From an uncultured Pelagibacteraceae bacterium (GTDB lineage: Bacteria > Pseudomonadota > Alphaproteobacteria > Pelagibacterales > Pelagibacteraceae): a stretch of DNA of 64,000 nucleotides. Positions 11,789 through 15,916 of this stretch are shown piece after piece; within the stretch, counting starts at the first letter, position 1; each line of letters starts with the position of its first letter. The stretch is taken from positions 59,845 through 123,844 of the forward strand of contig CABXYE010000001.1 in the NCBI GenBank assembly GCA_902516425.1. Direction: 5' to 3'. The notes under the pieces are model-generated. The model was not told where the DNA came from. It searched no databases and was given only the letters and a program-made list of their open reading frames with translations. Made by a program: the position numbers and the translations under genes.

Positions 11789-12413
11789 CTGGTAATCCTA
11801 CTATTGAAAGTGTTCCAACTGAATTGATTCCTCCACCTTTTATAACTTTAATTTCTTCTCTGTCAAAATTTATAACCTTATTAGATTTAGCGAGTGCTCT
11901 TCTAAATTTCAAATATCCTAAATAATTTCCAGATATTTCATAAGAAACTGGAATTTTAAAATAAGCAGCTTTTTTTTTATCTTTTCCTGGAGAAACTGGT
12001 TGTGGGTTTTCTTTGTTCAATTTTATTATATTTAAATTATTCAAAGAAGCAAAATTACTTATATTCTGATAAAGACCTTCAACCTCTTTCTGACTATGAA
12101 AAAGTTTACTTTTTTTATCATACTCAGGTTGAATTTTTTTTATTTTTGCTTTCAGCTGTATAATTTCCTGTTTGAGAATGCTAATTTGTTTTTCATTTTG
12201 TATCATCAAATTAATTCTTTCTTTCTGAGCATTTACTTTGGGATTAATAAAAGCGTAATAAATAATTAAAAAAACCAAAATAGATCCAAAATAAATCCCA
12301 AATTTTGTTAGAAGTTTTTTATCTTTAAATAATTCACTGTTTTTTAGTTTTTCAAGTAATTCCTTAACATCAATATTTTTAAGATCTAAATTTTTAAGTT
12401 CATTTAAATTCAT
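11775..12413 (-). CDS. Type IV pilus inner-membrane protein PilO-like (MshJ position)
   Basis: A 212-residue protein: short cytoplasmic N-terminus with charged helices, one transmembrane segment near residues 40-58 (FGIYFGSILVFLIIYYAFI), a coiled-coil stretch (about 65-115) and a C-terminal alpha/beta ferredoxin-like part containing ISGNYLGYLKFRRAL. The last pattern (G-x-Y-x-x-Y-L-x-F-x-x-x-L) is typical of PilO. It should pair with the PilN half of the upstream fusion protein. Its start overlaps the stop of that fusion gene by four bases and its end overlaps the next gene by 14. Confidence 0.8.
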   Translation of the reverse strand: MNLNELKNLDLKNIDVKELLEKLKNSELFKDKKLLTKFGIYFGSILVFLIIYYAFINPKVNAQKERINLMIQNEKQISILKQEIIQLKAKIKKIQPEYDKKSKLFHSQKEVEGLYQNISNFASLNNLNIIKLNKENPQPVSPGKDKKKAAYFKIPVSYEISGNYLGYLKFRRALAKSNKVINFDREEIKVIKGGGINSVGTLSIVGLPDEYK

Positions 12414-14509
12414 GTTTTCAATTTACAAAGAATTGTAAATCCTTTCTTATTATTTGCTGATTGTAAATCATCTTGACCAGTAGGTACATTCATTGCTTTC
12501 AAAGAAGCTTGGTCAATAAGGTCTTTGCCATTTAAATTCGATATAAAATTTATAATATCTTGATCAGAGAAAGCTAAGCCGGTTATAATAATTTCACTTG
12601 TTCCATTATAGTTTAAATTAGTGAATTGTACTCTCTGAGGAACACTTCTAGTAATCTGAGCTAAGGCCCTGTAAGAAATTGTTTGATTTGAATTTACCAT
12701 TGATCCAAGTTTTAAAGCTTTTTCCATATCATTTGCTATTTTGCTGGCTTTTTTATGCTCAGCTGTAATAAGATTAAATTCTTGCTGAATATTATTTTCA
12801 TTTACTAACTTATTTTTATTTGAATTGATTTGGAAAAAAGAAAAACCAATTAAAAAAATGTATAAAGCTGCAATACCGCCAACCAAGCCTTTCACCGCAA
12901 AGCCAGAAAGAAATTTCATCTTAGTTTGTCTTTTTAAGGCATCTCTGTTTGGTAAAAGGTTTATATTTTTTACTGCTGTAACAAATTTATAGTAACCGAA
13001 TACATCTAACTTTCTGTAAGCTAAGCCCAAAACTGATGTATAAATTGATCTATTTTTTATGTCAGTTTTTTCTTTATTGTATTCAGGTACTTTTATTTCA
13101 TTCAGTGGATCAAAAACTTGAAGACCTGTATTCAACAAATTTTTTCTGAATAAGGGAATTAATTCTTCAATATTATTTAAATTACTTACAATTTTAATAT
13201 TGTTTATCTTTGATGTATATTTGCTCTCATAATCACTTAAAGCTTGTTTTAACTGCATAGAATAACGTCTTACTACGCTCTCTGTATCGGTATTATTTAT
13301 ATTTGCTGAGTGTTGTGATAAAATTTCTTTTTCGTTAGGTCTCAAAAAAATATCTGTAATAATCGGAATATTATCATGAACTATAATTAAATAATTATCT
13401 TCAGCTCCAATTTCAAGTAAAGCATTATTTGCCTTGTTTTCTATTTTTAAAGTATTATCGAATGCATTCTTTAAAGTAAAACACTTAACATCCATAATTA
13501 CAGGATTTAATCCAGCCTTTTTAACTATTGAGGAATATGAATTAACATCACTAAGTTTTGAAGCTACAAAAAGAATTTCCATCGTATTAGTTTTATTATT
13601 TCTACTTATCACCTGATGAAATATTGAATACTCATTTAAATCATCTGTTAATTGAACTAAATTTTCCCAAAGTGAATCTGTCTCTATTGCTTTTTGAAGC
13701 TCTTCATCAGACATCAAAGGGCTGGTCACAACTCTGATTATAGCACTTGTTACTGGAATAGAAATCGCAACATTAGTGGTAGCTATTTTTGAATTATCCA
13801 TGGCAAGTTTCAATTCATCTGATACGTAATCTTTTGAATTAATTATTCCATCTGCTGTTTTATTTTTATCAAGAAGCCTTAAAGAAATTTTCTCTAATAT
13901 CCAATCTGAATCCTTTTTACTTAGTTGAGCTATTTTAATAGACTCCTCGCTTATATCTACACCTGCTATCTCCTCACCTGCAACATTCGCTTTACTTATC
14001 TTTTCTGAAAATAGTTTTTTAAAGTTTGAAAGACTTTTTTTCTTTTCTACACCCTCTATGTTAGTCCCTTTTTTTTTAAAAGAAAATTTGTCTTTTAAAG
14101 ATGATAAATTTTTTAAAGCTGACAAATCAATATTAAAAAGTTTTTTCTTTTTTTCCTCTTCAACATTAGGAGTAGATGTTTCTATTGTTTCGTCTTTTGT
14201 ATTTTCTTTTATTTCTTGCTCGTTTTCTACGGACTTTGGATTTGAAATATCATTTTCTGAAAAATTATTGATGTTGTTCTCTTTGTTATCCAAATTTTCC
14301 TCTAATTTTCCTGAAATAAGATCATCATACCACTTTTCTAAAATTATTTTTGCTTCTTCAAGGTTAGTTGTACCTGAAGAAATGACTTTTTGCTTCCCAT
14401 TATGAAAAGTTCTCCCTACCCAATTTTCAGATTTCAACTTTCCCTTGTATTTATCTTGTCTTACATAAATATGCAATCTTCCATCTTTAGTTGAAATAAT
14501 ATTTGTCAT
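12410..14509 (-). CDS. PilM-PilN fusion with an extra N-terminal integrase-arm-like domain
   Basis: A 699-residue protein in which two normally separate pilus proteins are joined. Residues about 1-75 form a small basic domain (RLHIYVRQDKYKGK, then ISSGTTNLEEAKIILEKWYD) resembling the three-stranded arm or AP2-type DNA-binding domain of phage integrases. Residues 76-170 are an acidic, low-complexity linker. About 175-490 form a PilM-type actin-like domain (IAGVDISEESIKIAQL, then NNALLEIGAEDNYLIIV). Near 515 the PilN signature NINLLPNRDALKRQ is followed by a transmembrane helix (about 530-555) and a periplasmic domain with RALAQITRSVPQRVQF. PilM normally binds the N-terminal tail of PilN, so fusion is structurally sensible. 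The N-terminal domain must be cytoplasmic. The gene starts the minus-strand pilus operon. Domain boundaries are approximate. Confidence 0.85.
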   Translation of the reverse strand: MTNIISTKDGRLHIYVRQDKYKGKLKSENWVGRTFHNGKQKVISSGTTNLEEAKIILEKWYDDLISGKLEENLDNKENNINNFSENDISNPKSVENEQEIKENTKDETIETSTPNVEEEKKKKLFNIDLSALKNLSSLKDKFSFKKKGTNIEGVEKKKSLSNFKKLFSEKISKANVAGEEIAGVDISEESIKIAQLSKKDSDWILEKISLRLLDKNKTADGIINSKDYVSDELKLAMDNSKIATTNVAISIPVTSAIIRVVTSPLMSDEELQKAIETDSLWENLVQLTDDLNEYSIFHQVISRNNKTNTMEILFVASKLSDVNSYSSIVKKAGLNPVIMDVKCFTLKNAFDNTLKIENKANNALLEIGAEDNYLIIVHDNIPIITDIFLRPNEKEILSQHSANINNTDTESVVRRYSMQLKQALSDYESKYTSKINNIKIVSNLNNIEELIPLFRKNLLNTGLQVFDPLNEIKVPEYNKEKTDIKNRSIYTSVLGLAYRKLDVFGYYKFVTAVKNINLLPNRDALKRQTKMKFLSGFAVKGLVGGIAALYIFLIGFSFFQINSNKNKLVNENNIQQEFNLITAEHKKASKIANDMEKALKLGSMVNSNQTISYRALAQITRSVPQRVQFTNLNYNGTSEIIITGLAFSDQDIINFISNLNGKDLIDQASLKAMNVPTGQDDLQSANNKKGFTILCKLKT

Positions 14510-14535
14510 ATTCGAATCAGTTTTATTTTAGTGTT

Positions 14536-14564
14536 ATAATACAATTGTAACACAAATTTGTCAA
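14536..14564 (-). promoter_or_regulatory. Promoter of the minus-strand pilus operon, with an operator-like element in its spacer
   Basis: On the minus strand TTGACA (14564-14559) is followed by a 17-base spacer and TATTAT (14541-14536), a near-consensus sigma-70-type promoter. The predicted start is about 20 bases before the ATG at 14509. The spacer contains one copy of the repeated TTGTGTTACAATT element (14555-14543), so a protein bound there would cover the promoter. Confidence 0.65.
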
Positions 14565-14761
14565 TTGTTTTGTGTTACAATTCATAATCTAAAATTAATC
14601 GCTTTTTACGCTATTTTTATTTTGTGTTAGAAAAAATTATTCTATTTTTGCGATAAATCATCAAATTTTATTTTGTGTTAGATTCAATTTATTTGTGTTA
14701 CACTATTTACATTTATCATATTTATTTGTTAAAAATATTTTTTTACTAAAAAAGTCAATAA

Positions 14762-14786
14762 AATCAACATTTTTTTATTGTTGATT
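14762..14786. repeat. Inverted repeat in the pilus intergenic region
   Basis: AATCAACA (14762-14769) and TGTTGATT (14779-14786) are perfect inverted arms separated by nine bases of mostly T. The right arm ends in the TTGATT that serves as the likely -35 box of the pilT promoter. It could be a second regulator site or a weak hairpin. Confidence 0.5.
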
Positions 14787-14809
14787 ATAAATTGTATTTA
14801 TAGTATAAA
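14781..14809 (+). promoter_or_regulatory. Likely promoter of the plus-strand pilT operon
   Basis: TTGATT (14781-14786), a 17-base spacer and TATAAA (14804-14809) form a good sigma-70-type promoter. Transcription would start near 14816, inside the repeated element at 14809-14821, and the inverted partner lies at 14838-14850. The ATG of pilT is at 14906, with AAGGA at 14896-14900 as ribosome binding site, so the leader is about 90 bases. Confidence 0.55.
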
Positions 14810-14905
14810 TTTTGTGTTAGAGTACTTAAAATTTTATTCTAACACAAAATTATTTGTTACTATAAGTCAATTAGTTAAAAAAAGTGATAATTTATAAGGA
14901 TTTTT

Positions 14906-15916
14906 ATGATCGACAAAATTGTTAACATTGTAAAAGAAAACCCAAAAGTTTCAGATTTCCATTTAAGAGCAAATTGCCCTTTTTCTTACAGATTAATGGG
15001 TGAAATAAATATCTTAGAGGGAGAAATTGTTAAAAATGAGGAAATTGAGGAGTTATTAAATAAATACTGCTCAAAATCTGATGTTGAGCTATTTAATTCA
15101 AAAAATGAGTTAGATAGTGGATTTATGTTAGAAAAGATGAGGTTTAGAGCAAATTTCTATAAAACCCTTAAAGGTCCTGCTGTAGTTCTTAGAAAAGTAG
15201 AAACAGCAATAATAAATATGGACACTCTTAACTTGCCCCCTGTAATGTATAGTGTAGTTGACATGCATAAGGGGCTTGTATTGGTAACGGGACCAACAGG
15301 ATCTGGTAAGTCAACTACATTAGCTTCAATAATTAATCAGATTAATGAGACCAGACAAGCAAACATAATTACAATTGAAGATCCTGTTGAATTTATTCAT
15401 ACAGATAAAAAAAGTATTATTTCGCATAGAGAAGTAGGAAAGCAAACAGAAAGTTTTTCGACAGCACTAAAAAGTGCGTTAAGAGAAGACCCAGATGTAA
15501 TTTTAGTTGGTGAGCTTAGAGATATAGAAACTATTAGCATGGCCTTAACAGCAGCAGAGACAGGACACTTAGTTTTTGGAACATTGCACACCAGTGGTGC
15601 ACCAAATACAATAAATAGAATAATTGATGTTTTTCCATCAGAACAGCAAGCACAAATTCAAGCTCAGCTTGCTGATAGTTTGCAAATGGTAATTACACAA
15701 AAATTATTTAAAACAACAGATGGTAAAGGGAGAGTCGGAGCATTTGAAATAATGGTTTGTAACTCACCAGTAAAAAATTTAATTAGAGAGAAAAAAATTC
15801 ATCAAATCCCAAGTGTGATGCAAACCGGAACACGGGATGGTATGATCTCTATGGAAAAATCAATTGAAAATTTAATTCAATCAGGAAAAATAAGTAGTAT
15901 AGATGCTAAATCGTAA
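14906..15916 (+). CDS. pilT: Type IV pilus retraction ATPase PilT
   Basis: A 336-residue secretion ATPase without the long N-terminal domain and tetracysteine motif of PilB. Visible are Walker A GPTGSGKST (129-137, Lys135), the Asp box IITIEDPVEFIH, Walker B DPDVILVGELRD and the His box TGHLVFGTLHTSGA. The C-terminal VKNLIREKKIHQIPSVMQTG corresponds to the AIRNLIRE region that PilT needs for retraction. Depolymerisation of the fibre gives twitching or DNA uptake in other bacteria. The start has a good AAGGA five bases upstream. It heads the plus-strand operon, diverging from the PilM-PilN fusion gene, and overlaps the next pseudopilin gene by 14 bases. Confidence 0.93.
   Translation: MIDKIVNIVKENPKVSDFHLRANCPFSYRLMGEINILEGEIVKNEEIEELLNKYCSKSDVELFNSKNELDSGFMLEKMRFRANFYKTLKGPAVVLRKVETAIINMDTLNLPPVMYSVVDMHKGLVLVTGPTGSGKSTTLASIINQINETRQANIITIEDPVEFIHTDKKSIISHREVGKQTESFSTALKSALREDPDVILVGELRDIETISMALTAAETGHLVFGTLHTSGAPNTINRIIDVFPSEQQAQIQAQLADSLQMVITQKLFKTTDGKGRVGAFEIMVCNSPVKNLIREKKIHQIPSVMQTGTRDGMISMEKSIENLIQSGKISSIDAKS

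Follow-up and report, generated by a model that had tools for sequence, protein, structure and literature searches.

A repeat array at the pilM-pilN promoter of SAR11 bacteria that accompanies an integrase-type N-terminal domain of PilM-PilN and may serve in autoregulation

The repeat array upstream of the pilM-pilN fusion gene in a SAR11 genome is probably bound by an integrase-type DNA-binding domain at the N-terminus of the PilM-PilN protein itself, which would autoregulate the pilus operon from its own promoter. This reading is based on sequence comparison, i.e. on the array, the domain, the linkage between the two, and integrases that carry the same domain and have the same motif in their flanks, together with a predicted fold; from these we infer physical binding, repression rather than activation, and a coupling to pilus assembly. 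SAR11 bacteria, which have few regulators, rank among the most abundant cells of the ocean. In the window, i.e. the whole 64-kb stretch of DNA analysed, pilM-pilN occupies positions 12410–14509 on the minus strand and encodes 699 aa. The divergent pilT gene (14906–15916, plus strand) is a neighbour of domain-bearing pilM only in the clade to which the window belongs.

The intergenic region between the two genes contains four exact copies of ATTTTGTGTTAGA and three near ones, just as an earlier note on this DNA had reported, in addition to one decayed copy. The exact copies are located at 14619–14631, 14670–14682, and 14809–14821 on the plus strand and at 14838–14850 on the minus strand. The near copies are AATTTGTGTTACA (14546–14558, minus strand; motif scan and alignment of relatives), GTTTTGTGTTACA (14567–14579, plus strand), and TATTTGTGTTACA (14690–14702, plus strand), and the last of these lies 20 bp, start to start, from the exact copy at 14670, not 21 bases as previously given. 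The decayed copy, TTTTAGTGTTATA (14526–14538, plus strand), is situated at the −10/start region of the predicted pilM promoter, where most aligned relatives have an intact TTTTGTGTTATA. The copies at 14546 and 14567 form a perfect inverted pair, TGTAACACAA-14-TTGTGTTACA, and those at 14809 and 14838 form another, TTGTGTTAGA-16-TCTAACACAA, with spacers of 14 and 16 bp that agree with the earlier description. All seven TTGTGTTA 8-mers of the window fall within 14548–14847, confirming that it holds no further array, and exact ATTTTGTGTTAGA 13-mers are restricted to the pilM-pilT array in a scan of the 884-kb genome; the motif is thus not common genome-wide. Three single-mismatch copies were found elsewhere in the genome, the same number as for a reversed control pattern, and copies with up to three mismatches numbered 88 in the whole window against 72 expected, a count that is uninformative. 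It is barely conceivable that the array acts at the RNA level or serves as a DNA uptake sequence. The inverted pairs of outer copies could fold, but most relatives have adjacent copies in direct orientation, ~21 bp apart, and no Rfam family was matched, and hundreds of genome-wide copies would be expected of an uptake sequence, whereas the exact motif is present at one locus only.

The predicted pilM promoter, TTGACA-17-TATTAT (14536–14564, minus strand; 11/12 match), carries the copy at 14546–14558 in its 17-bp spacer and the copy at 14567–14579 immediately upstream of its −35 element, and both the promoter and the spacer copy are conserved in six relatives. The TTGATT-17-TATAAA promoter predicted toward pilT, at whose start point the exact copy at 14809–14821 is located, is the top-scoring match on its strand, although it is weaker than the pilM promoter. 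Both placements had been made in the earlier note and were recovered here. Promoter-like matches are not in excess in the array region (7 vs. 6.3 in shuffled sequences), and sites overlap predicted promoters no more often than by chance across 109 arrays (77 vs. 66.5 at random). In clades other than that of the window, the sites lie upstream of TTGACA. In the window's clade, conservation in the alignment is confined mainly to the motif copies, TTGACA/TATTRT, and one TTGATTTTATTGA block, the remainder being saturated, and the core pilM promoter is covered by three sites that are conserved together with it. A conserved TTGATTTTATTGACTTTTT block, present once or twice per array between motif groups, is found in the window at 14737–14779 (minus strand).

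The PilM-PilN protein contains PilM_2 and PilN domains (Pfam, 4.4e-24 and 3.9e-9, respectively) and is encoded, judging from the reading frames of the operon, in a pilMNOPQ-type operon. Its domain order is an N-terminal domain, a low-complexity linker, PilM, a transmembrane helix, and PilN. The ~65 extra N-terminal residues have no Pfam match; they include a domain of predicted DNA-binding type at aa 4–66 (coding region 14312–14500, minus strand). Only one strong hydrophobic segment is present, the predicted transmembrane segment at aa 541–559 (12833–12889, minus strand; mean hydropathy 2.12), and the N-terminal domain is therefore expected to be cytoplasmic, on a long low-complexity linker.

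This 65-residue domain is present in the PilM-PilN proteins of some relatives and absent from others, and the array follows it. Among 399 genomes of the genus Pelagibacter, paired motifs (searched as TTGTGTTAGN{9,16}TTGTGTTAG; zero matches with the reversed control) were detected in 66 of the 72 with the domain at PilM and in none of the 327 without it (Fisher's test, 5e-69, with shared ancestry ignored). The figure of 72 is obtained from 77 matches by leaving out one with the domain in an integrase only and four weak matches. The domain-bearing genomes without the pair pattern are that of the window itself (G000), whose array has another spacing; G146, G167, and G228, whose arrays have other spacing or variant copies; and G277 and G338, in which the domain is close to a contig end. 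Among the matches listed, the pairs adjoin the domain, except in G293, where the pair hit and the domain are on different contigs. Weak domain matches in G065, G395 (in a CoA-transferase frame), G104, G290, and G109:C9 were taken as chance. At least three motif copies are present at 85 of the 88 domain loci that have enough upstream DNA. The consensus of 600 distinct sites is TTTGTGTTAGAG, and in the main clade one layout recurs, with groups of two, three, and three sites and successive distances of 21, 86, 22, 21, 128, 22, and 21 bp; a spacing of ~21 bp would place neighbouring sites on one helix face.

The array belongs to pilM, since its other neighbours vary: most arrays of domain-bearing pilM adjoin genes quite different from pilT, and the range of neighbours includes h100, pilY1, PP2C, pirin, pilT, and others. 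In domain-bearing relatives, it is found upstream of pilM even where pilT is ~16 kb away (G015 and G016) or on another contig (G003), and no motif was found upstream of pilT in three genomes with a domain-bearing pilM. Conversely, a divergent pilT is kept at 52 of 52 domainless pilM loci, with a short gap (121–162 bp among those listed), and the motif is absent from all 30 of these upstream regions that were scanned. A general switch acting jointly on the extension and retraction genes, as proposed in the earlier note, is rejected on these grounds, and only for the window's clade is control of two operons tenable. The same distribution qualifies the expectation that the array be conserved wherever both operons are kept: relatives with a domain-bearing pilM have it and those with a domainless pilM do not, a split that the N-terminal domain explains. 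Several loci have features of their own. In L066, the array upstream of pilM is enlarged to ~800 bp and includes numerous decayed copies (TCTAACACA). In L120 (400–520), the domain is joined directly inside an antisense PP2C-like gene and the array is missing, probably an amplification or joining artefact. In the main clade (e.g. L019, 9576–11164; L025, 12552–14140), the neighbours are a 100-residue protein and a phosphatase-like protein (PP2C/SpoIIE-type, by eye), which might form a signalling pair with a connection to pili.

Domain-bearing genes occur on both sides of the deepest split in a PilM-core tree, within which a domainless clade is nested (98/90). One gene with domain and array (G100, L277) falls inside this nested clade, which is consistent with the domain and the array having been lost and regained together. 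As the two are side by side, linkage would be expected from joint inheritance alone, and a formal test of correlated change has too few events to work with, since the tree requires a change of state only about twice. This small number of changes, and the fact that chromosomal neighbours are co-inherited, would also accommodate a separate transcription factor that binds the array, the PilM N-terminal domain being linked to it merely through shared ancestry of the locus. We consider such a factor improbable, because the domain is shared with integrases whose flanks have the motif as well, an independent context, and because no second array exists in the genome. The dedicated regulator proposed in the earlier note is retained in part: the array is operator-like, locus-specific, and conserved with pilM, and very probably has one dedicated binder, but a separate regulator is not needed, since PilM-PilN itself, through its N-terminal domain, is the candidate binder.

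The same domain begins two SAR11 tyrosine integrases of 418–423 residues (G138 and G456; loci L154 and L204), whose N-terminal domains are 58–63% identical to those of PilM; the L154 integrase matches Phage_integrase (9.7e-8). Both genes adjoin tRNA-Leu. Their flanks contain five TTGTGT(T/A)AGA-type sites each, arranged like arm-type sites, and TTGTGTAAGAG, TATGTGTTAGA, and similar sites are found in corresponding places in the two. In 594 bp of flanking sequence, six sites lie within one mismatch of TTGTGTTAGA, compared with a mean of 0.156 and a maximum of 3 in 2000 shuffles, although the flanks are not fully independent because the two integrases are related. Judged from their sequence, these look like arm-type sites. 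Each gene is part of an integrated element at tRNA-Leu(CAA) (L154, 982–3229; L204, 1611–3856), in which the domain-bearing integrase stands beside a serine recombinase and the far end carries an apparent 5′ half of tRNA-Leu. No domain-bearing integrase was found among INPHARED phages or in IMG/VR.

An AlphaFold2 model of the N-terminal domain (pLDDT 89; the full-length PilM-PilN model is poor, with pLDDT 46) has a beta-beta-beta-alpha arrangement, with strands at 5–7/12–16, 30–36, and 39–44 and a helix at 50–66. This predicted fold agrees with that described for arm-binding domains, i.e. three strands and one helix (PMC8138268). A search of Pfam, PHROGs, PDB sequences, and the Foldseek PDB gave no convincing match, and Foldseek with the 67-residue model returned no significant match and no solved arm-binding domain; some of these domains are missed by Pfam according to a review (PMC8138268). 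Descent from known arm-binding domains is thus only likely, as neither Pfam nor Foldseek places the domain. Since domain-bearing integrases are known in the same genus, the array might instead be a remnant of an integrating element, or a place where one docks, recognized by the integrase of that element, with pilM having acquired a domain that has no present role on DNA. We regard this as very improbable: the arrays are kept across divergent lineages while the adjacent bases saturate, the integrases are found at tRNA-Leu and not at pilM, and none is present in the pilM loci with listed reading frames.

Autoregulation by PilM-PilN could operate as follows. Several copies of the protein would bind the sites at their own promoter region, with residues of the sheet of the N-terminal domain contacting the TGTGTTAG bases of the 12-bp site, and would regulate the pilus assembly operon, most likely as a repressor because, in the window's clade, three of the sites overlie the core promoter of pilM. 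As PilN is membrane-anchored and PilM is part of the pilus base, the balance between free and assembled PilM-PilN would report the number of complete pilus machines. Alternatively, the domain might bind the array mainly as an anchor, the membrane-bound PilM-PilN holding the pil locus at the base of the pilus, whether to couple gene position and assembly or to position the chromosome, rather than controlling transcription. The predicted transmembrane helix, the six to eight sites at fixed spacing, which exceed the needs of simple repression, and the variable position of the sites relative to predicted promoters among clades are consistent with such tethering. It nevertheless appears unlikely, although less so than a separate factor, given that no array exists other than the one at the gene for the protein itself and that the three sites over the core promoter in the window's clade are conserved with that promoter. 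Domain copies of a different kind were seen in three IMG/VR contigs (L172, 4992–5339; L175, 4992–5342; and L176), which encode ~116-residue proteins consisting of the domain and a C-terminal membrane helix; a gene next to them has relatives in the Pelagibacter phages HTVC008M and Mosig, and no motif array was found near them in the stretch read. We tentatively suggest, as a rather speculative combination, that the pilus platform protein regulates (or tethers) its own operon and that these membrane-anchored pelagiphage copies (L172–L176) could act on the host array, e.g. to shut off pili during infection.

If autoregulation by PilM-PilN is correct, the pilus machine would be its own regulator in many SAR11 bacteria, and by reading its own promoter, this structural pilus protein would offer an economical way to match expression to the number of assembled machines. 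It would also provide a clear example of a cellular machine that contains a DNA-binding domain of mobile-element type. The array and the domain, which is absent from the protein-family libraries searched, gain a testable function, and one domain links SAR11 pili, integrases, and pelagiphages. No precedent for a pilus protein of this kind was found in the literature searched, which covered few subscription papers.

The SAR11 protein shares the order PilM_2 then PilN with the PilM and PilN proteins of type IV pili but fuses the two and adds a DNA-binding-type domain and a linker. ToxR and CadC are membrane-bound one-component regulators with winged-helix domains and sensory periplasmic parts; PilM-PilN is similarly a membrane protein with a putative DNA-binding domain in the cytoplasm and a promoter as its presumed target, whereas its anchor is a structural assembly protein. 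Arm-binding domains of the Int-Tn916 and lambda Int type (PMC8138268) are N-terminal in integrases, as in L154 and L204, and repeated sites flank the integrase gene in such systems, as at these two loci, whereas the domain of PilM-PilN lacks a recombinase part and is joined to a pilus platform protein. In prophage KplE1, IntS acts as a repressor of its own gene through sites that overlap the promoter of that gene (PMC2951348). Here likewise, a protein with an arm-type domain has sites at its own promoter beside its own gene, and the array is at that gene only; by comparison with IntS, the remainder of the protein is the membrane-anchored PilM-PilN, the sites are more numerous, and the repression is presumed.
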